Of a DNA stretch of 64,000 nt, positions 1,960 to 63,094 are shown one piece after another. Where the stretch lies: contig CM040447.1 in NCBI GenBank assembly GCA_022749755.1, positions 5,478,545 to 5,542,544 on the forward strand, read 5' to 3'. The notes under the pieces were generated by a model. The model saw only the letters and a program-made list of their open reading frames with translations, was not told the origin of the DNA and did not search any database. Each line of letters opens with the position of its first letter. Within the stretch, counting starts at the first letter, position 1. The translations under genes and the position numbers were made by a program. The stretch comes from Azadirachta indica. Its lineage: Eukaryota > Streptophyta > Magnoliopsida > Sapindales > Meliaceae.

Positions 1960-3347
1960 TAAAATAAGATAAAATTTGGTAATACTTATAAGCAAATTAA
2001 GCAACTAAATGACTAAATGCCTTCTCTCACAGCTTTAGTTCTTCACTTCATGCTTATCTTTTATTATTCATTTTTTTAACTTAATTAAATTAATTAGTTG
2101 TTGTTTCTTTCTATTGGTAGTCATCAACTTTCTCTAAGGAAATGGAAGGCTTACAAGATTACTCAATTAATATAAAATCATTAGTGTGATGATTATAGTA
2201 CACTGCATAAAAAGTAACAGGTTATATATCACATTAATTTAAATAAAAGTTTCGATTAAATTTTATCTATAATTAAAAATATAGAAAATTTCCTTGATTT
2301 TCTAGTTTAATGATTTTTTTTTTTTAAAACTAAACTTTAGCTAGGAAAATTCATTAAAGAAGAAAAACAAGGAAAGCTCAAACAAACAAGGGGGACTTAA
2401 GAAGCCTAACTATTGACATAAACCATACAGAAGATGGGAAAGCCAAAATAAAGAATTAAAAAAAAAAAAAGAAAAAAGACGATAGCAAGGAAAACCGTTA
2501 GCATCATGAGACAGAAAACTCTCAATTGAAGAAGCACATGTTAGCTAATGCATCCGCCAACGGCTTCGTTTCCCTAAAGTTGTGAGAGCACCGAAAGTTC
2601 AATCTTAAGATAAAAGACTTACAATTCCGTCATCTATTATGCAACCTCCACGGCGGACGAAGAGAGTTCTTCACCAACAAATGAATGATAAGGAGAGAAT
2701 CGCTTTCCAGCCACAAATTAGACCACCCTCTAGTAGTAGCAAGCTCCAGAGCTAAGATGACAGCCATAATCTCAGCGTGGTATGCTGTTTGATGAACCAA
2801 AGCGAAGCCAAAGCTACTAAGAAAATGCCCACAATTATCGTAGAAAACCCCAGATATCTTTTATTGCATTGATAGTTTTCACTTTTTGTTCGGTGTAATG
2901 TGTTAAAGTTAGAAATATACTAGCTAGCATGTACAATTCATTTTTTCAAAAGAAAAAATAATTATCCTCATCTTAAATTATTGTTGTTACTTTGTCATTG
3001 TTATTACTGTTTACGTTTAGATATGCATATCCATTAAGTAATAACAACTGCTTTTTGATAGATCATAATAAATTTATTTGTAAAATATTTCAGGACAACA
3101 GTATTAATTAATATACATATAGCACACTTCACCTTATTTCACCCCGTAGGAATTAATACAAGTACCCATGGATCCAACAAAAATTACATTAAATCTTCAT
3201 AACACAAACAAATCGACTACACAGCACATGCAAGAGCAAATTACGTCACTCTCAATACAATCGTTATAAAGATTATCCCCTAAAACTAGACCATAAATTA
3301 TATTAAAAATAGAATAATCTTATCCCAAGGGCCCTAGATTTGGTAAA
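1960..3347 (-). repeat. BAHD 3'-flank repeat, copy 1
   Basis: This block recurs beside each BAHD unit: about 15552-16170, 34650-36105, 56110-57640 and 62270-63094. Shared landmarks are the AAATGCCTTCTCTCACAG stretch near 2014, a TATATATCACATTAATTTAAA stretch near 2223, and the TTATCCCAAGG end near 3320. It lies downstream of BAHD copy 1, which is on the minus strand, and is split by a LINE fragment. The repeats show that whole units, not only coding regions, were duplicated. Confidence 0.75.
2311..2856 (-). mobile_element. 5'-truncated LINE fragment with RNase H domain
   Basis: Read on the minus strand, this translates into the C-terminal RNase H-like domain (RVT_3 type) of a plant L1-like element. 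It contains HAEIMAVILALELA (catalytic Glu), LWLESDSL (catalytic Asp) and, near the end, LADALANMCF (last Asp), then a stop. A T-run at about 2316-2330 on the plus strand is the expected poly(A) tail of a minus-strand insertion. The sister BAHD flanks (for example near 57190) run through this site without the insert, so it landed after the duplications. One in-frame stop is visible, so it is dead. Confidence 0.75.
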
Positions 3348-3793
3348 GGGAGGAAACTTCATACCCCTGCCCTTAGGTCTAATATCCCATCAGTCCTAAA
3401 CTTTCACTAATACCCTATCACCTTCTTTCCATCATCTCCATTATTGGCATCACTAATTTTTAGGGGCATTTACCAATGTTAATTAATTTACGAACAAATT
3501 GATTTAGTGCTATTATATATTCTAATATATATATCATATGCATAAAATTTAATTTAAACTTTATTTTATTTTAAAATATACCTTCAATTGAGATCACAAT
3601 ACATAGTTAACAAACACAAAAAGGCTGCTTCTACAACCTTTTGAACATTATTGAGGATAATTTGATAAATGCCCCTAAAAATAATAGATACTAATAATAG
3701 GGATGATAGTAGGGGGTATTAGGAAATTAATCAAAGTTTGGAGGGGTGATTGGGTATTAAGCCTAAAAGTGGAGGGTAATCAGATATTCTTCC
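3348..3793. mobile_element. Long-TIR MITE at the 3' end of BAHD copy 1
   Basis: About 446 bp. Its two ends are inverted copies of each other over about 120 bp. The left arm (3348-3480) runs through CCCTTAGGTCTAATATCCCA and TTTTTAGGGGCATTTACCAA. The right arm (3670-3793) gives the matching series when reverse-complemented. Flanks are TTTGGTAAA on the left and ATCACTAAA on the right, an eroded target duplication of about 9 bp. The uninterrupted site in BAHD copy 2 reads TTTGGCAAA. Long TIRs and a 9-bp duplication suggest a Mutator-like MITE; a hAT origin (8 bp) cannot be excluded. The right arm is translated as the end of BAHD copy 1. Confidence 0.8.
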
Positions 3794-5125
3794 ATCACTA
3801 AATGCAAGTAATTCTTCCTCATGCTCTAAGAAAGCCATGTCTTCTTCACGTAAAGACACTAGCACATCAATCCCATCCCCCAGTCGCGTATCCATAAGCA
3901 TGATAACATTCATGAATGCGGGAGGTTATTCATCCTGAAAAAAACTCATCCAAACAGGTTTTCCCCATCGAAAATCAATATTATAAAATTCACTGTTGCA
4001 CCAACTAGTATAGGTAATTTTATCTTCTCCCTTAGAAGAAACTTCAAGTACATCTTGGACAACTTTCTGATAGTTAAGAAACCCTTCCTCTCCTTCTAGG
4101 CTCTTCACAAAATCCCCATTAATTAATTCTATTGCTTCCCTTAGTTTGGCCACCAAGCCATCTAAATCTCCTTCCTCAGTGCATAGTGCATTTGCATACC
4201 AAACAAGATTTCCCATACAATAATCTACAATTGGTGGCTTAATTCTCCAACGCAAATTTACTATATGCCTGAGCAAAGTTGGTTTGTGGATTCCTGATCT
4301 TTTCTTCATTGCAGAAAAAATGCATTTGGAAAGAAGTGCTGATACGGCTTCAATACGTGTTGGATTTTGCACGCATGAGCTAGTTACCTTGGATTTGAGT
4401 TTGGCTATTGCTTTTGCTTCAAATAAAAATGTCCTTGTAGCTACTCTTCTACCAGTTTTAACAAAAGGGAACACTTGGGCAGCGAAAGTTAATTCGCTGT
4501 GGAATTCATCACTTGGAGGAAATAAGGATGCAGCATCACAATTAGGACACATTCCTCCTTCAATATTTTTCTGCGCTACGGTAGACCAACATCTCATAAA
4601 GCAGCTGGTGGTTGTTGCATCATAGATCTTGTGTGAAAAGCATATGCAAATGGCAAGACCCCCACAAGCAAATACTGTTACTTGTATTTGACCCACATAC
4701 AGTTCTTCAATTTGTCCACTCTTCTCACTGTCGTTTACTAGAGAAAACTTACCCTTCAAGGAGTGATTGGGTTGGTTTAAAAATTGATTGAGAGGAATTT
4801 TAGCTCGAGCCTCTACAAAATAAATCCCCTTATCATTGCAGTCAACCGAAATATAATCTTTGATCCTTCCAGCAAGTGGGTAATAGAGAGTTAAGGCTTC
4901 TGACAGAGATTGCTTCAGTAGCTGTAATCTTTCCGAGACAATATGATCAATGTCAACCAAGGCGGAAGAAAGCTGTAAGTTTTCGTTCAGGCGATAAAAT
5001 AGAAGAACATAAGGGAAGTGGTGACTAACATATTGATCAAAGAGACAGAGCTTATGGGTTTTGAGGTAAGAAGGTGTAGAAGAAGAAGGTTGGATCCATT
5101 CTCTAGAAATTATTTTCAAATCCAT
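3731..5125 (-). pseudogene. BAHD acyltransferase copy 1 (nonsense mutation)
   Basis: BAHD family acyl-CoA-dependent acyltransferase, vinorine synthase-like, expected to be cytosolic. From the ATG at 5123-5125 the frame is open for 399 codons, starting MDLKIISREWIQPSSSTPS. A TAA at 3926-3928 follows, where the sisters have a Ser codon (TCA) after FFQDE. The frame then continues open to 3731, so one substitution separates it from a 464-residue protein. The catalytic HXXXD motif is present as HKIYD. The structural DFGWG motif reads DFRWG, a second damaging change. No introns are seen. The stop removes the last ~64 residues, including the whole MITE-derived tail. A truncated protein might be made, but activity is unlikely. 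Confidence 0.88.
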
Positions 5126-16170: not shown

Positions 16171-17522
16171 TTATCCCAAGGGGCTTGCATTCAATTTGGC
16201 AAATGAAAGTAACTCTTTATCATGTTCTAACAAAGCCATGTCTTCTTCATGCAAAAGAACCAGTGCATCAATCCCATCACCCAATCTTGTATCCATAAGC
16301 ATGATAAGATTCATGAACGCGGGAGATAATTCATCCTGAAAAAAACTCACCCAGACAGGTTTTCCCCATCCAAAATCAATATTATTAAGACCAGTGTTGC
16401 ACCAACTAGTAAAGGTAATTATATCTTCTGCTTTGGAAGAAACTTCGAGTACATCTTGGACAACTTTGCGATAGTTAACAAAACCTTCATCTCCTTGTAA
16501 GCTCTTCACAAAATCCTCATTAACTATTTTTATTGCTTCCCTCAATTTGGTCGCCAAGCCATCTAAATCAACTTCCTTCTCTGTGCACAGTGCATTTGCA
16601 TGCCAAACAAGGTTTCCCATACAATAATCTGAGATTGGCGGCTTGATTCTTCGACGCAAATTTACTATATGTCTGAGCAGAGTTGGTTTATGGATTCCTG
16701 ATCTTTTGTTCATTGCACGAAGGATACATTTGGAAAGAAGGGCTGATACGGCTTCAACACGCGTTGGATTTTGCACACTTGAGCTAGTTGCCTTGGGCTT
16801 TGACAGTGGCTATTGCTTTTGCTTCAATTACAAATCTCCTTGTAGCAACTCTTCCGGCTTTAACAAAAGAGATCACTTGGGCAGCGAAAGTTAGTTCGCC
16901 AAGGAATTTGTCACTTGGAGGAAATAAGGATGCAGCATCACAATCAGGAAGTATTGCTTCTTCAATATTTTTCCGAGCTACAGCAGACCAACTTCTCATA
17001 AATGAACTGGTTGTTGTTTCATCACAGACCTTGCGTGAGAGATATGCAAATGGCAAGACCTCCACAAGCAAATACTGTTACTTGCATTTGACCCACATGC
17101 AGTTCTTCAATTTGTCCTCTCTTCTCACGGTTGTTTACTGGAACAAACTTACCAATCAAAGAGTGATTGGGTTGGTTTAGAAATTGATTGAGAGTAATTT
17201 TAGCTCGAGCATCTACAAAATAAATCCCCTTATCATTGCAGTCAACTGAAATTATCTTTATCCTTCCAGCAAGTGGGTAATAGAGAGTTAAGGCTTCTGA
17301 CAGAGACTGCTTCAGTTGTTGCAATCTTTCCGAGACAATATGATCAATGTCAACCAAGATGGAAAAAAGGTCTACGTCTTGGTTCAGCGGATAAAACAGG
17401 AGAGTATAAGGATAGTGGTGACCAATATATTGATCAAAGAGACAGAGCCTATGGTTTTTGAGATGAGAAGGTGTAGGAGAAGAGGGTTTGATCCATCCTC
17501 TGGAAATTATTTCCAAATCCAT
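16171..17522 (-). pseudogene. BAHD acyltransferase copy 2 (frameshifts, lost catalytic His)
   Basis: Vinorine synthase-like BAHD gene read from an ATG at 17520-17522 (MDLEIISRGWIKPSSPTPS). It is broken in two places relative to copy 4. A 2-bp deletion within the HXXXD region (about 17035-17045) shifts the frame. A 1-bp insertion near 16790 (GCCCAAGG for GCCAAGG) shifts it again without restoring it. Even in the correct frame the motif reads SRKVCD, so the catalytic His is Arg. DFGWG is kept. The C-terminus differs from all sisters: ELLSFAKLNASPLG and stop, with no MITE. This looks like the ancestral ending. The TATA-containing segment upstream is also missing. It is certainly non-functional as an acyltransferase. 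Confidence 0.92.
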
Positions 17523-36105: not shown

Positions 36106-37293
36106 CTGATTGCGTCCTATTGTTTACGCTAATATTTTAGGACCCCCTTATTGTTTTAGTAATATCCCAATACCCCCTCCACGATATTTTCGTTAAAAAA
36201 AAATTAGTCTTTTTGAGGGTAATATAGTATTTTAACTTTGATTTCTTGTGAAAGTTGTAATGAACTGACGCATAACAGTACTTTTGCTTTGATTAAAATA
36301 AAATATTGGATTTTTTATTTAAATAAGACCCATACATTAAATAAAATTAATAAAGTAATATATTGTTTATTAATTAAATTCCTCTTAAAATAATAAATTA
36401 AGATAAATTAAAAGAGTAATATTTGATAATTAAGTAAATTGTCTCTTATCATAATAACTGAAGGTAAATTAACACAATAATATATTTTTCAAATAAAAAA
36501 ATTATTTGATAATTAATTAAATTCCCCTAAGATAAATAACTTAATATAAATAAGAAAGTAGTAATTAAAACTAAATTAAATTTCTATATTTAAAACTAAA
36601 AAGGAAAAAGAAAAAAAAAAGAGAAAACCCTAAACATATCTGGGATTCCGATTAGGATCTATCTAAATTTTTGAGTCTTTTGTATTTGTGATTTGGTATG
36701 CTATTTTTCATTTGTTTTTGGAATTGTAATTTAAGTTAATTTGTTGGGAATTTTGGTCAACTAGGTTTTGGTTTTCAAATTAGTATTTGAACGTGTAGTT
36801 GGATTAGGTTGATTACTAAGTAAAAATTAGGTTATTATTAATAGTTCGAATTGATTCTTTTTAGTTGAATAGATTTCATTAATAGAATTTTGAAATGACT
36901 ACTAGTTTACTTGTTGAGTTTGAAAGGGGTAGAATTTTTGGCGATTGAGAGAGAAAAAGAATAAAATTAGCTAATTTGCTATGGGTTTTGATTTGGTCCT
37001 TAACTAGTTTTTTCCCTCTTTCTCTTTGTCTTCAATTGCATTTTTCATCTCAAGTTATGTGGTGGATTAATTTGATGCTTAGGTATGGAGAAAGAACAAT
37101 AACAATTCTTTAGGAGAAAAGGAGGCATAACGAAGAGTATTGTCTATTTCTTATTTATTTTTGTTAACAAAGAGAATAAATCTAGATGCTAGGAATGAGG
37201 TCTTAGAAGAAAGAAATGAATAAAAGAAATCAAATAAATAAATAAATAAATTTTTGTAGTACATGCCAATATTAGCACTAATGAATTCTCCGT
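36106..37293. mobile_element. Nested insertion inside the relic's MITE, MULE-like left end
   Basis: The MITE sequence stops at CTATTATAAAATTCC and resumes near 37294 (TCAATGTAAATATCATATGC), so about 1.19 kb is inserted. The left end (36108-36230) resembles the TIR of the element at 8408: CTAATATTTTAGGACCCCC, CCCAATACCCCCTCCACGAT and TTTGAGGGTAATATAGTATT. From about 36620 the composition shifts to a host-like 5' leader (AAAACCCTAAACATATCTGG, then a T-rich intron-like stretch ending near TTAGGTATGGAGAAAGAAC). No right TIR is obvious. Confidence 0.5.
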
Positions 37294-37513
37294 ATTTCAA
37301 TGTAAATATCATATGCATTAGAATATAATATAAAATTTTATTTATTTAATTTTAAAATATACCTTCAATTGGGACCCTAATACATAGTCAACAAACACAA
37401 AAAGGTTGCTTTCTACAACATTTAGAACATTATTGAGGGCAATTTGACAAATGCCCTTAAAAAGTAATAGATACCAATAATAGGATTGATAGTAAGGGAT
37501 AATAGAATATTAT

Positions 37514-38076
37514 TCAAAGTTTAGAGGGGTGATTGAGTATCAGGTCTAAAAGCGGAGGGTAATCAAGCATTCTCTCTTTGATAAATGCAAGTAATTCTTC
37601 ATCATGTTCTAAGAAAGTCATGTTTTCTTCACGTAAAGACACCAACACATCAATTCCCTCCCCCTGATCTTGTATCCATGAGCATGATAAAATTCATGAA
37701 TGCGGGAGGTGATTCATTATGAGAAAAACTCATCCATATAGGTTTTCCCCATCCAAAATCAATATTATAAAGTCCACTGTTGCACCAACTAGTAAAGGTA
37801 ATCATATCTTGTCTCTAGAAGAAACTTCAAGTACATCATGGACAACTTTCCAATAGTTAACAAACCCTTCCTTTTCTTGTAGACTCTTAGACAATATGAT
37901 CAATATCAACCAAGGTGGAAGAAAGGTGTAAGTTTTGGTTTAGGGGATAAAACAAGAGAATAGAAGGGAGGTGGTGACCAACGTATTGATCAATGAGACA
38001 GAGGTTAGCTTTTGAGGTGAGAAGTTGTAGGAGAAAAGGTTTTGATCCATTCTATGGAAATCATTTCCAAATCCGT
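37514..38076 (-). pseudogene. BAHD acyltransferase relic with large internal deletion
   Basis: Matches the first ~63 codons of the BAHD gene joined directly to the last ~125. About 840 bp, including the HXXXD motif, are missing, with the junction near 37889. The start codon is ACG instead of ATG (38074-38076). A 2-bp deletion follows in the LKTYNLC region, and a further 1-bp deletion lies near 37815. The DFGWG region survives (FGWGKPIWMSF-like). The end still reads DYPPLLDLILNHPSKL before a TGA, so the MITE-derived tail was present before this copy was gutted. Promoter-proximal sequence is retained but the gene is dead. Confidence 0.9.
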
Positions 38077-39325: not shown

Positions 39326-39576
39326 TAATATAATATAAATTTTATTTTATTTAATTTTAAAATATACCCTCAATTGGAATCCCAATACATAGTCAACAAA
39401 CACAAAAGGCTGCTTTCTACAACCTTCAGAACATTATTGAGGGCAATTTGACAAATGCCCTTAAAAAGTAGATACCAATAATAGGGATGATAGTAAGGGA
39501 TAATGAGATATTATTTAAAGTTTAGAGGGGGGATTGGGTATCAAGTCTAAAAGCGGAGGGTAATCAGGCATTCTCC
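39326..39576. mobile_element. Partial long-TIR MITE at the 3' end of BAHD copy 3
   Basis: Only the gene-proximal half of the element is present. It begins at the duplication junction, corresponding to about 37320 in the previous unit. The gene-side TIR is intact and encodes the end of copy 3. Without the opposite arm, no long hairpin can form here. Confidence 0.75.
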
Positions 39577-40914
39577 CTTTGATAAATGCAAGTAATTCTT
39601 CATCATGTTCTAAGAAAGTCATGTCTTCTTCACGTAAACACACTAGCGCATCAATCCCATCCCCTAATCTTGTATCCATGAGCACAATAAAATTCATGAA
39701 TGCAGGAGGTGATTCATCCTGAGAAAAACTTATCCATACAGGTTTTCCCCATCCAAAATCAATATTATAAAGTCCACCGTTGCACCAACTAGTAAACGTA
39801 ATCATATCTTCTCCCTTAGAAGAAACTTCCAGTACATTTTGGACAACTTTCTGATAGTTAACAAACCCTTCCTCTCCTTGCAGGCTTTTCACAAAATCTC
39901 CATTAATTAATTCTATTGATTCCCTTAGTTTGGTCACCAAGCCATCTAAATCTCGTTCCTTCTCGGTGCATAGTGCATTTGAGATCCAAACAAGGTTTCC
40001 CATACAATAATATGGAATTGGTGGCTTGATTCTTCGACGAAAATTTACTGAATGTCTAACCAAAATTGGTTTATGGATTCTTGATCTTTTTTTCATTGCA
40101 GAAAAGATACATTTGGAAAGAAGTGCTGATACAGCTTCAATGCGCGTTGGATTTTGCACGTATGAGCTAGTAGCCTTGGCTTTGAGTTTGGCTATTGCTT
40201 TTGCTTCAAATACAAATCTCCTTGTAACTAGTCTTCCGCCAGTTTTAACAAAAGGGAACACTTGGGCAGCTACAGTTAGTTCGCTGTGGAATTCGTCACT
40301 TGGAGGAAATAAGGATGCAGCATCACAATCAGGACGTATTGCTCCTTCAATATTTTTTTGTGCTATGGTAGACCAACATCTCATGAAGCAGATGTCAGTT
40401 GTTACATCACAGATCTTGTGCGAAGGACATATGCAAATGGCAAGACCCCCACAAGCAAATACTGTTACTTGTATTTGACACACATATAGTTCTTCAATTT
40501 GTCCACTCTTCTCACTGTCGTTTACCGGAGAAAACTTATTAATGAAAGAGGGATTAGGTTGGTTTAGAAATTGATTGAGAAGAATTTTTGCTCGAGCCAC
40601 TACAAAATAAACCCCTTCGTCATTGCAATCAACTGAACTATGGTCTTTGATCTTTCCAGCAAGTGGGTAATAGATAGTTAAGGCTTCTGACAAAGATTGC
40701 TTCAGTAGTTGCAATCTTTCCGAGACAATATGATCAATGTCTACCAAAGTGGAAGAAAGGTGTAAGTTTTGGTTCACGGGATAAAACAGGAGAATAGAAG
40801 GGAAGTGGTGACCAACATATTGATCAATGAGACAAAGAGATTATAGGTTTTGAGGTGAGAAGGTGTCGGAGAAGAGGGTTTGATCCATTCTCTGGAAATC
40901 ATTTCCAAATCCAT
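39515..40914 (-). pseudogene. BAHD acyltransferase copy 3 (single 2-bp insertion)
   Basis: Vinorine synthase-like BAHD gene starting at the ATG at 40912-40914 (MDLEMISREWIKPSSPTPSH). The span is 1400 nt, exactly copy 4's 1398 nt plus 2. A 2-bp insertion near 40835 (CTCTTTGTCTC for CTCTGTCTC) shifts the frame about 25 codons in and quickly meets a stop. The remaining ~420 codons are open and look healthy: HKICD, DFGWG (NIDFGWGKP) and the MITE-derived tail MPDYPPLLDLIPNPPSKL. There is no in-frame ATG near the 5' end of the downstream frame. It is a recent-looking loss, and a sequencing or haplotype difference should be considered. Confidence 0.88.
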
Positions 40915-57640: not shown

Positions 57641-58089
57641 GGAAGAATACCATTTACCCTGCCTTCAGGTTTAATATCCCACTAATCCCTAAACTTTGAC
57701 TAATACCCGATTAATCCTTGCCGTTATTTCCATTATTGGTAAATATTACTTTTTTGTGATATTTACCGATGTTATTTAAATCATGAACAAAGTTATCAAA
57801 TGTTATTCTATATTCCAATGTATATATCACATGCATTAGAATTTAATTTAAATTTTATTTTATTTTAGAATATACCTTTTATTGAAACAGTAATACATAG
57901 CCAACAAACAGAAAAAAGCCTGCTTTCTACAGCCTACTAAACATTATTCAGGATAATTTGATAAATATCCTTAAAAAGTAATAGATATCAATAACAAGGA
58001 TAACAATACGGGTAATGGGATATAAATTAAAGTTTAGAAGGTTGATTGGATATTAGATCTAAAAGTGGAGGGTAATCGGGCATTCTTCC
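57641..58089. mobile_element. Long-TIR MITE at the 3' end of BAHD copy 4
   Basis: About 449 bp with both arms. Left arm 57641-57780: GGAAGAATACCATTTACCC, TAATATCCCACTAATCCC, CATTATTGG. Right arm about 57950-58089, its inverted copy. The gene-side flank is CTTGCTAAA (58090-58098). The distal flank is partly deleted. The right arm encodes the last ~22 residues and stop of copy 4. Confidence 0.8.
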
Positions 58090-59424
58090 CTTGCTAAATG
58101 CAAGTAATTCTTCATCATGTTCTAAAAAAGCCATATCTTCTTCACGTAAAGATACCAGCACATCGATCCCATCCCCCAATCTTGTATCCATAAGAATGAT
58201 AAGATTCATGAATGCCGGTGGTGATTCATCCTGGAAAAAACTCATCCAAATAGGTTTTCCCCATCCAAAATCAATATTATAAAAACCACCGTTGCACCAA
58301 CTGGTAAAGGTAATCATATCTTCTCCCTTAGAAGAAACTTCAAGTACATCTTGGACAACTTTCCGATAGTTGGCAAACCCTTCCTCTCCTTGTAGGCTTT
58401 TCACAAAACCTCCATTAATTAATTCTATTGCTTCCCTTAGTTTGGTCACCAAGCCATCCAAATCTCCTTCCTCCTCAGTGTACAGTGCATTTGCGTACCA
58501 AACAAGGTTTCCCATACAATAATCTGCGATTGGTGGCTTGATTCTCCGACGAAAATTTACTATATGTCTTAGCAGAGTTGGTTTATGGATTCCTGAACTT
58601 TTGTTCATTGCACGAAGGATACATTTGGAAAGAAGTGCTGATACGGCTTCAACACGCGTTGGATTTTGCACATACGAGCTAGTTGCCTTGGCTTTGAGAT
58701 TGGCTATTGCATTTGCTTCAAATACAAATCTCCTTGTAGCTACTCGTCCACCGGTTTTAACGAAAGGAAACACTTGGGCAGCGAAAGTTAGTTCGCTAAG
58801 GAATTCGTCACTCGGAGGAAATAAGGATGCAGCATCACAGTTAGGACGTATTGCTCCTTCAATATTTTTCCGCGCTACGGCAGCCCAACATCTCATAAAG
58901 CAGCTGGTCGTTGTTACATCACAAATCTTGTGTGAAAGACATATGCAAATGGCAAGACCTCCACAAGCAAATACTGTTACTTGTATTTGACCCACATACA
59001 ATTCTTCAATTTGTCCTTTCTTCTTGCTGTTGTTTACTGGAGAAAGCTTACCAATCAAAGAGCGATTAGGTTGGTTTAGAAATTGATTGAGAGGAATTTT
59101 AGATTGAGCCTCTACAAAATAAATACCTTCATCATTGCAATCAATTGCAACATCGTCTTTAATCCTTCCAGCAAGTGGGTAATAGAGAGTTAAGGCTTCT
59201 GACAAAGATTGCTTCAGTAGTTGCAATCTTTCCGAGACAATACGATCAATGTCAACCAAGGTCGAAGAAAGGTGTAAGTTTTGGTTCAGGGGATAAAACA
59301 AGAGAACAGAAGGAAAGTGGTGACCAATATATTGATCAATGAGACAGAGGTTATATGTTTTGAGGTGAGAAGGTGTAGGAGAAGAAGGTTTGATCCATTC
59401 TCTGGAAATCATTTCCAATTCCAT
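58027..59424 (-). CDS. BAHD acyltransferase, vinorine synthase-like (intact copy)
   Basis: A 465-residue single-exon frame, of normal BAHD length. It should transfer an acyl group from acyl-CoA to an alcohol or amine of a specialised metabolite in the cytosol. The substrate cannot be told from sequence; the nearest named type is vinorine synthase (alkaloid acetylation), which is a clade label only. It starts MELEMISREWIKPSSPTPSH. The catalytic HXXXD is HKICD at 165-169 and the structural DFGWG is at 385-389. YYPLAGRIKDD (81-91) and NFRRRIKPPI (290-299) are typical conserved blocks. Residues from about 446 to 465, ending DYPPLLDLISNQPSKL, are encoded by a MITE arm. A TATA box lies ~60 bp upstream. 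It is the only undamaged member of the cluster here. Confidence 0.95.
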   Translation of the reverse strand: MELEMISREWIKPSSPTPSHLKTYNLCLIDQYIGHHFPSVLLFYPLNQNLHLSSTLVDIDRIVSERLQLLKQSLSEALTLYYPLAGRIKDDVAIDCNDEGIYFVEAQSKIPLNQFLNQPNRSLIGKLSPVNNSKKKGQIEELYVGQIQVTVFACGGLAICICLSHKICDVTTTSCFMRCWAAVARKNIEGAIRPNCDAASLFPPSDEFLSELTFAAQVFPFVKTGGRVATRRFVFEANAIANLKAKATSSYVQNPTRVEAVSALLSKCILRAMNKSSGIHKPTLLRHIVNFRRRIKPPIADYCMGNLVWYANALYTEEEGDLDGLVTKLREAIELINGGFVKSLQGEEGFANYRKVVQDVLEVSSKGEDMITFTSWCNGGFYNIDFGWGKPIWMSFFQDESPPAFMNLIILMDTRLGDGIDVLVSLREEDMAFLEHDEELLAFSKGRMPDYPPLLDLISNQPSKL

Positions 59425-62269: not shown

Positions 62270-63094
62270 AAATTTGTGTCATACTTATAAGCAAATTAAG
62301 CAACTAAATGAGTAAATGCCTTCACTCACGGCTTCTGTTCTTCGCTTCAGGATCTTTTATTATTCATTTTCTTCGACTTAATAAATTAATTAATCGTTGT
62401 TTCTTCGAATTGGTAGTCATCAACTTTCTCTAAGGATCGAAATGCAAGGCTTACAAAATTACTCAATTAACATAAAATCAATAATGAGATAATGATATGA
62501 CATCAAATGAAGAGTAACAGGTTATATATCACATTAATTTAAACAAAAGTTCGTATATCAATTTTTTATCTATAATATTACTTTTTTTAATAGCTTTTAT
62601 GTCATTTATAATTTTCACTTTTTAGTCTATTTACTATGTTAAAGTAAGAAATAGACTACCATATGTAGTTATTTTTTTCGAAAAGAAGAAACAATTAGCC
62701 TCACCTTAAATTATTATTGTTATTGTTGTGATTGTTATTACTGGTTATATGTATACATCCACATATATATAAATATATATATATAGCCATTAATTAATAA
62801 CAACTACTTTTTGATAGACAATAATAAATTTATTTGTAAAACATATCAGGACAACAATATTAATTATTATATAACACACTTCTCCTTACTTCACCCCATA
62901 GGAGTACAAATAGCCATTGATCCATAAAAAATTGTACCAAATCTTCATAACACAAACAAATCAACTACGCAGACACATGCAAGAACAAATTACTTCACTA
63001 CAAACATTATAAAGAATAACTCCTAAAATCAGACCATAAATTATATTAAAATAGAATAATCTTATCCTAAGGGGTAAGAATCAAATTTGGCAAA
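62270..63094 (-). repeat. BAHD 3'-flank repeat, copy 5
   Basis: Contains the AAATGAGTAAATGCCTTC and CTACGCAGACACATGCAAG landmarks. It ends in TTATCCTAAGGGGTAAGAATC and TTTGGCAAA (63086-63094), the same site where the MITE inserted beside copies 1 and 4. Confidence 0.75.

Follow-up and report, generated by a model that had tools for sequence, protein, structure and literature searches.

A transposon arm encodes the C-terminal tail, with a predicted peroxisomal signal, of tandem BAHD acyltransferases in neem

Results

BAHD genes and their MITEs

The window analysed here is a stretch of 64,000 nucleotides of the neem genome (Azadirachta indica; contig CM040447.1, here C8, positions 5,478,545-5,542,544). 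It carries five copies of a BAHD acyltransferase gene, copies 1 to 4 and a relic, and all except copy 2 end inside a miniature inverted-repeat transposable element (MITE). Only copy 4 (n5536 in the numbering of the wider array) has an intact reading frame, those of copies 1, 2, 3 and the relic being broken. It occupies window positions 58027..59424 on the minus strand as a single open frame of 465 amino acids with HKICD and DFGWG motifs. The protein matches the PF02458 profile (E 7.9e-79) over residues 1-440, and the tail lies outside the profile. Across 58 sequences, aligned with 57 of the 120 listed homologues, H165, D169, G387, W388 and G389 of the HXXXD and DFGWG motifs are invariant, and D385 and F386 nearly so. 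The nearest fold to its structure model is vinorine synthase (PDB 2bgh). In the first homologue search 7994 candidates were scored; among the 120 listed of 2207 matches, Melia azedarach proteins match the array enzyme best, at up to 87%.

The MITE of copy 4 (57641..58089, no strand assigned to this or the following elements) measures 449 bp and has long terminal inverted repeats (TIRs). Its coding arm lies at 57965..58089 (minus strand) and its inverted, non-coding arm at 57641..57765 (plus strand), the inner edges being approximate. When 57641-57776 is aligned with the reverse complement of 57950-58089, 97 of 139 columns are identical (70%) with a score of 49, compared with a mean of 14, a standard deviation of 2.9 and a maximum of 30 in 1000 first-order Markov shuffles. 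The arms of copy 1 match in 86 of 118 columns (73%; score 51, shuffle maximum 28). The first-pass annotation, made from the letters of the window, had described a MITE of about 450 bp with an inverted second arm; length and arms agree with this, but both arms are complete only in copies 1 and 4 within the window, and the interval then proposed (57641..58215) reaches 126 bp past the element.

The last 20 codons of copy 4, GRMPDYPPLLDLISNQPSKL (58030..58089, minus strand), are TIR sequence, and the stop codon (58027-58029) is inside the element as well. Some 22 final codons plus stop had been placed in the MITE arm for copies 1, 3, 4 and the relic; the location stands, with 20 codons in copy 4. 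The SKL codons and stop (58027..58038, minus strand) spell a canonical tripeptide of the type 1 peroxisomal targeting signal (PTS1), with this function being predicted. Next to the tail lies the gene-side target-site duplication TTTAGCAAG (58090..58098, minus strand), which encodes F-S-K and whose far-side counterpart is gone through deletion. In copy 1 (n5482) the MITE extends over 3348..3793 with both arms present and with tail codons and stop at 3731-3793; it is flanked by the gene-side duplication TTTAGTGAT (3794..3802, minus strand) and, at 3320..3347 (minus strand), by the far-side duplication TTTACCAAA (3339-3347) followed by decayed old C-terminal codons and stop (3320-3338). Truncated MITEs terminate copy 3 (n5518; 39338..39577, MITE positions 1-248) and the relic (n5516; 37293..37576, MITE positions 7-282), each with an open tail that ends in PSKL.

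Empty site and fossil ending

Copy 2 lacks the element and ends in ELLSFAKLNASPLG. Its uninterrupted site TTTGCCAAA (16195-16203; TTTGGCAAA on the plus strand) and its old ending LNASPLG-stop together span 16171..16203 (minus strand), where TTTGCCAAA TTGAATGCAAGCCCCTTGGGATAA reads FAK-LNASPLG-stop. The annotated empty site and normal-looking ending are thereby confirmed, the old ending being shared by Melia P0005 (FSKLDPSPLG) and by the paralogue relics n5614 and n5620.

The same ending survives behind the element. In n5543, a gene just beyond the window whose MITE has its far side within it (63062..63094, minus strand), the element is followed by TTTGCCAAA (63086-63094) and by FDSYPLG-stop (63062-63085), so that TTTGCCAAA TTTGATTCTTACCCCTTAGGATAA reads FAK-FDSYPLG-stop. 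Behind the MITE of n5543 the former gene ending, stop included, thus persists as a fossil. The corresponding region is similar in n5572 and n5588 and decayed in n5611 and n5482; n5536, n5561, n5568 and n5577 have lost it through a common deletion. At the same place the fragment n5603 carries sequence unrelated to it. The far-side duplications agree with the empty site at 9/9 positions in n5543, n5572 and n5588 and at 8/9 in n5482 and n5611. On the gene side the variants are TTTAGCAAA, TTTAGCAAG, TTTATCAAA, TTTAGTAAA and TTTAGTGAT. In n5543, n5572, n5588 and n5611 a stretch of other sequence, about 1.1-1.5 kb long, lies within the MITE, from position ~310 to the second arm.

The element family in the genome

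A search of the genome (280.8 Mb, 21 contigs) for the MITE outside BAHD genes, as proposed in the first-pass annotation, revealed a genome-wide family with 9-bp target duplications. The TIR occurs outside the array on many chromosomes, e.g., at both ends of a 1.48-kb element (C9:13676249-13677723) whose ends are 82% identical. A 267-bp member used as query gave 955 first-look candidates, and all 40 that were scored matched. Two ends were available for 14 members, namely those on C9, C6, C13, C8 (L026), C7 (L027) and C11 (L032) plus eight MITEs of about 265 bp; L041, L049 and L061, with one end each, were excluded from this count. The flanks of 13 of the 14 match at 8-9 of 9 bp (9/9 in ten members; 8/9 in L064, C6 and C9). 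Flanks were compared with 9 shifts in the first set and 16 shifts in two later sets, and about 0.7% of random flank pairs with equal shift freedom reach 8 or 9 matches when 9 shifts are allowed. A 265-bp member (L058, C7:11389273-11389537) lies within what appears, judged by eye, to be gene sequence.

On C13 two facing TIRs 6.7 kb apart (C13:17191863-17198533, ends in L055 and L056) are bordered by a perfect 9-bp duplication, GTGAGAAGA; judged by its ends, this is a candidate autonomous relative. A long TIR combined with a 9-bp target duplication is a hallmark of Mutator elements. Because the family has both and includes the 6.7-kb member, we class it as Mutator-type on its ends, duplications and sizes.

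The arms at unrelated loci also explain the tail. Read in the gene's frame from their outer end, they follow a GRMPxxPLLxLIPxxPx pattern (e.g., GRMPITPLLFELMPHYSPIF, GRMPNTPLLLSLIPHHPPIFF-stop and ERMPNTPLLLNLIPHHPLIFF-stop), and the majority form of the gene tail is GRMPDYPPLLDLIPNHPSKL-stop. Since arms from unrelated loci give the same reading in the same frame, both the tail and its stop come from the TIR. Of 16 such arms, nine keep this frame open for at least 20 codons and seven do not.

Distribution, trees and age

The array (C8:5.45-5.62 Mb, covered apart from 5,470,000-5,478,544, so that counts are lower bounds) contains at least 13 MITE-tailed copies and three without the element. Four of the 13 are intact: n5460, n5536 (copy 4), n5543 and n5561. 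The tail alignment left out the non-MITE rows n5494, n5614 and n5620 as well as near-identical duplicates at C8 0.66-0.83 Mb. The latter belong to a second set of array segments (C8:664000-693999 and 820000-829999; L019-L022), one of them inverted, in which copy 4 has a match of 99.5%; this set may stem from a segmental duplication of recent date or from an error of assembly.

Melia possesses both forms of the gene. The tail is complete in P0001, P0002 and P0006, and in P0001 and P0006 all 20 of its residues are those of the majority neem form; P0005 retains the pre-insertion ending for which the first-pass annotation had advised looking in related species. Of the 2207 homologues 120 were listed, and among these the tail is confined to Melia proteins; tail-directed searches with P0001 and the n5543 protein gave matches in Melia alone (three of nine and two of five candidates). 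That annotation had named two findings that would overturn its idea, BAHD proteins of distant species with the tail and no MITE, or arms that fail to align as inverted repeats. Neither was made, since the arms align and the tail is limited to Melia among the listed homologues.

A protein tree of 15 listed homologues and ten neem copies pairs neem copy 2 with Melia P0005 (support 92/82). The trees are compatible with a single gain of the tail and leave it unproven, so that the shared site, the shared phase and the fossil ending bear the argument. With the rate of 3.86e-9 quoted in PMC13063475, synonymous divergence of the gene body between the two tailed clades gives a rough age of 30-34 million years; the non-coding divergence of the MITE gives a likewise rough 33-44 million years.

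Selection on the tail

Selection was assessed on the four intact of the 13 tailed copies. For the tail plus junction codon, the pooled proportions of synonymous (pS) and nonsynonymous (pN) differences are 0.40 and 0.10, a ratio of 0.25, compared with 0.44 in the body; the 20 tail codons give a pN/pS of 0.28 (0.26 by another counting). Neutral evolution simulated on the tree of the neighbouring non-coding MITE, with runs yielding a stop set aside, has a median of 0.90; values as low as that of the tail have P 0.0005 if the tail changes at the MITE rate and P 0.005 if it changes at 0.6 times that rate. Nucleotide divergence among the four copies is 0.17 in the tail, little under the 0.21 of the non-coding MITE, and the signal consequently lies in the kind of change and not in its amount. 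Ratios equally low occur in 5 of 256 overlapping control windows of the non-coding MITE; in the non-coding arm all 108 windows lie higher. For the arm control n5482 was substituted for n5460, which is without that arm; in this set the tail scores 0.31, and the arm windows have a minimum of 0.49. In the other frames of the tail, pN/pS is 0.88 (+1), 7.5 (+2) and, in reverse, 0.75, 0.28 and 1.59, the low reverse frame having its third positions in common with the true frame. The only indel in any intact tail, that of n5561, measures 3 nt. Selection on the tail is likely on these figures. Gene conversion was considered as a source of the low ratio and rejected: it would depress synonymous differences too, and pS is 0.40 in the tail vs 0.19 in the body.

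The SKL ending

Eight of the 13 neem copies have SKL at the end of the tail (n5457, n5460, n5482, n5516, n5518, n5536, n5561 and n5577), three of these eight being intact, which makes three of the four intact tailed genes. The same end is found in P0001, P0002 and P0006, i.e., three of the five Melia proteins of the tail lineage. Elsewhere in the array n5611 ends in FIL, and n5572 and n5588 are frameshifted. The available text of PMC11662444 gives the plant PTS1 consensus as [S/A]-[K/R]-[L/M/I], to which SKL conforms, and that of PMC3487989 treats canonical tripeptides as stand-alone signals, with SKL accounting for 655 of its 2562 example sequences; in the latter text SIL is not found as a separate word. 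Besides the three Melia proteins, only one of the 120 listed homologues has a canonical tripeptide at its end, making four in all: Citrus P0035 (QSKL, with a different tail). This related BAHD protein, ending in ...HNVIPQSKL, apparently represents a separate gain of a PTS1-like end within the same enzyme group.

Most copies have the motif TAAACTTTGA in their non-coding arm too, and for this reason SKL-stop probably arrived with the element, with SIL being derived. Many family members elsewhere have PIF at the SKL position. In the AlphaFold model of copy 4 the confidence score (pLDDT) is 73 at residues 441-450, 50 at 451-460 and 35 at 461-465, with a short helix at 454-458. The low values in the tail may reflect a free C-terminus but also a shallow alignment with few tailed sequences. 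Judging by its open frame the tail is very probably translated, and peroxisomal targeting of the SKL-tailed enzyme is a prediction that we consider somewhat more probable than its opposite.

Discussion

A MITE has inserted into a BAHD gene, its TIR is the source of the tail and the stop codon, and the resulting gene is present in two genera. That the insertion created a chimaeric gene is close to certain. In the history we propose, a MITE of Mutator type, roughly 450 bp long, entered a BAHD gene of Meliaceae after the codons for ...F-A/S-K and ahead of those for L-x-x-x-P-L-G-stop, with a 9-bp duplication whose unoccupied form is TTTGCCAAA. The TIR happened to have 20 open codons in the frame of the gene and gave it a new tail and stop, while the old final codons were cut off beyond the element. 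The chimaeric gene was amplified in tandem and is present in neem and Melia, and its tail has probably been maintained by selection. The likeliest function of the tail would be its terminal SKL, a putative PTS1 that could be bound by the receptor PEX5 for entry into the peroxisome. Several acyl-CoAs are produced in that compartment by beta-oxidation; a metabolic role for a peroxisomal enzyme would be a further, inferred step. Taken as a whole, the account in which a MITE changed an ordinarily ending BAHD protein into a predicted peroxisomal enzyme appears fairly probable. For its strongest form, in which the TIR delivered a ready-made PTS1, relocating the enzyme in one step, and selection has kept it for some 30 million years by a rough clock in neem and Melia, we would put the probability at about 0.55.

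Several observations weigh against this history or parts of it. As to the insertion, the paired duplications of a single BAHD element agree at just 5-7 of 9 positions, since the gene-side copies have drifted, and the flanks of the C11 member (L032) agree at only 6/9, i.e., show no duplication. Support for the branch uniting tailed rows in the protein tree is weak (70/23). The unrooted DNA tree, built from ten neem rows, places copy 2 beside the n5543 clade, so that, as far as the trees go, the copy 2 lineage may have lost the element. The tail frame, annotated as open in all four tailed copies of the window, is indeed open there, but across the array three of the 13 copies lack the frame or its stop, n5572 and n5588 through the same 1-nt deletion and n5603 through loss of the stop. 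In Melia, the tail of P0003 is shortened and P0004 ends in LIAFT, exactly at the insertion point. The evidence for selection comes from 20 codons in four genes, a small sample. Finally, the intact n5543 ends in SIL, and a canonical PTS1 is hence not universal among the tailed enzymes. SKL-stop is kept in eight of the nine copies of the SKL clade, n5603 having the SKL codons and no stop; neutral retention in the eight copies tested has P 0.013, or 0.07 at 0.6 times the rate, in a set chosen post hoc.

The same insertion and chimaera could have left a tolerated, unstructured extension without function, in which SKL is a coincidence of the TIR motif CTAAACTTTGA. The presence of TAAACTTTGA in the non-coding arm, by which SKL was probably ready-made, the nine of 16 family arms that would yield open tails by chance, the SIL end of n5543 and the decay of most copies all suit such a passenger. 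It sits badly with a pN/pS of 0.28 against a neutral 0.90, with a sole intact-tail indel of 3 nt and with the complete identity of two Melia tails to the majority form, and we regard it as unlikely. We give slightly less credence still to selection for a role other than targeting, such as stabilising the enzyme or letting the conserved DYPPLLDLI stretch pack on it. DYPP and LLD are retained also in n5543 and n5611, which end in SIL and FIL, and the model predicts the short helix at 454-458; yet the predicted confidence drops from 50 to 35 over residues 451-465, and SKL is constant in the three full-tailed Melia proteins and eight neem copies.

Two other explanations can be set further back. 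The tail might be absent from the mRNA through an intron or early polyadenylation, as the halt of the Melia model P0004 precisely at the insertion point could suggest; this is improbable given that the four intact genes are single open frames through to the TIR stop, that three Melia annotations contain the tail and that it bears a signature of selection. Mutator elements are able to pick up gene pieces, and the ending could in principle be an old BAHD ending captured by the element in the manner of a Pack-MULE. We reject this, since the same reading occurs in arms at unrelated loci, the fossil old ending lies beyond the element, the empty site exists and the tail is confined to Melia proteins among the listed homologues.

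The first-pass annotation is thus supported in substance: the empty site, the fossil ending and the arms elsewhere in the same frame bear out its insertion into the final codons with a tail and stop supplied by the TIR, and its multiplication of the chimaera after insertion holds as well. It missed the SKL end, the signature of selection, the sharing with Melia and the three losses of frame or stop.

Transposons in coding sequence are usually discussed as gene breakers or exon donors. Here, an insertion can be read almost entirely, from the empty site, the duplication and the stranded ending to the tail and stop, the multiplication, the presence in two genera and the signature of selection. 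If the SKL works, a common MITE could switch the compartment of an enzyme in one step, and this in a plant family that produces limonoids such as azadirachtin. Within the open-licence literature, judged by titles and the beginnings of abstracts, none of the papers listed reports that a transposon gave rise to a peroxisomal signal or a MITE to a C-terminus, apart from one on wheat (PMC6824096).

The array enzymes resemble BAHDs of the vinorine synthase type (PF02458; PDB 2bgh), their top sequence and fold matches, in fold and in the HXXXD and DFGWG motifs, but carry a TIR-encoded tail where the latter have the family ending. The Melia limonoid 7-O-acetyltransferase L7AT (P0019; PMC9976607; 55% identity) shares enzyme family and plant family with copy 4, yet terminates in AFAKMDPSPM without the tail. 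As a family, the neem elements are like non-autonomous Mutator-like elements, as generally defined, in their long TIR, 9-bp duplication and large copy number; unlike the usual MITEs of this type, the BAHD insertion turned coding and multiplied along with its host gene. For the predicted compartment a parallel is the benzoyltransferase HSR201, presumably a member of the BAHD superfamily. HSR201 works in the peroxisome, as is predicted for copy 4, and this localisation is required in salicylic acid synthesis; its signal is non-canonical and has no link to a transposon in the available text (PMC11662444), in contrast to the TIR-borne SKL. The closest counterpart to the insertion itself is Mariam of wild emmer wheat, described in the accessible text of PMC6824096 as an exonic miniature element with a 9-bp duplication that causes a stop and an altered C-terminus. 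The neem case shares these features with Mariam and differs in that the insertion is common to two genera and positioned after the domain.
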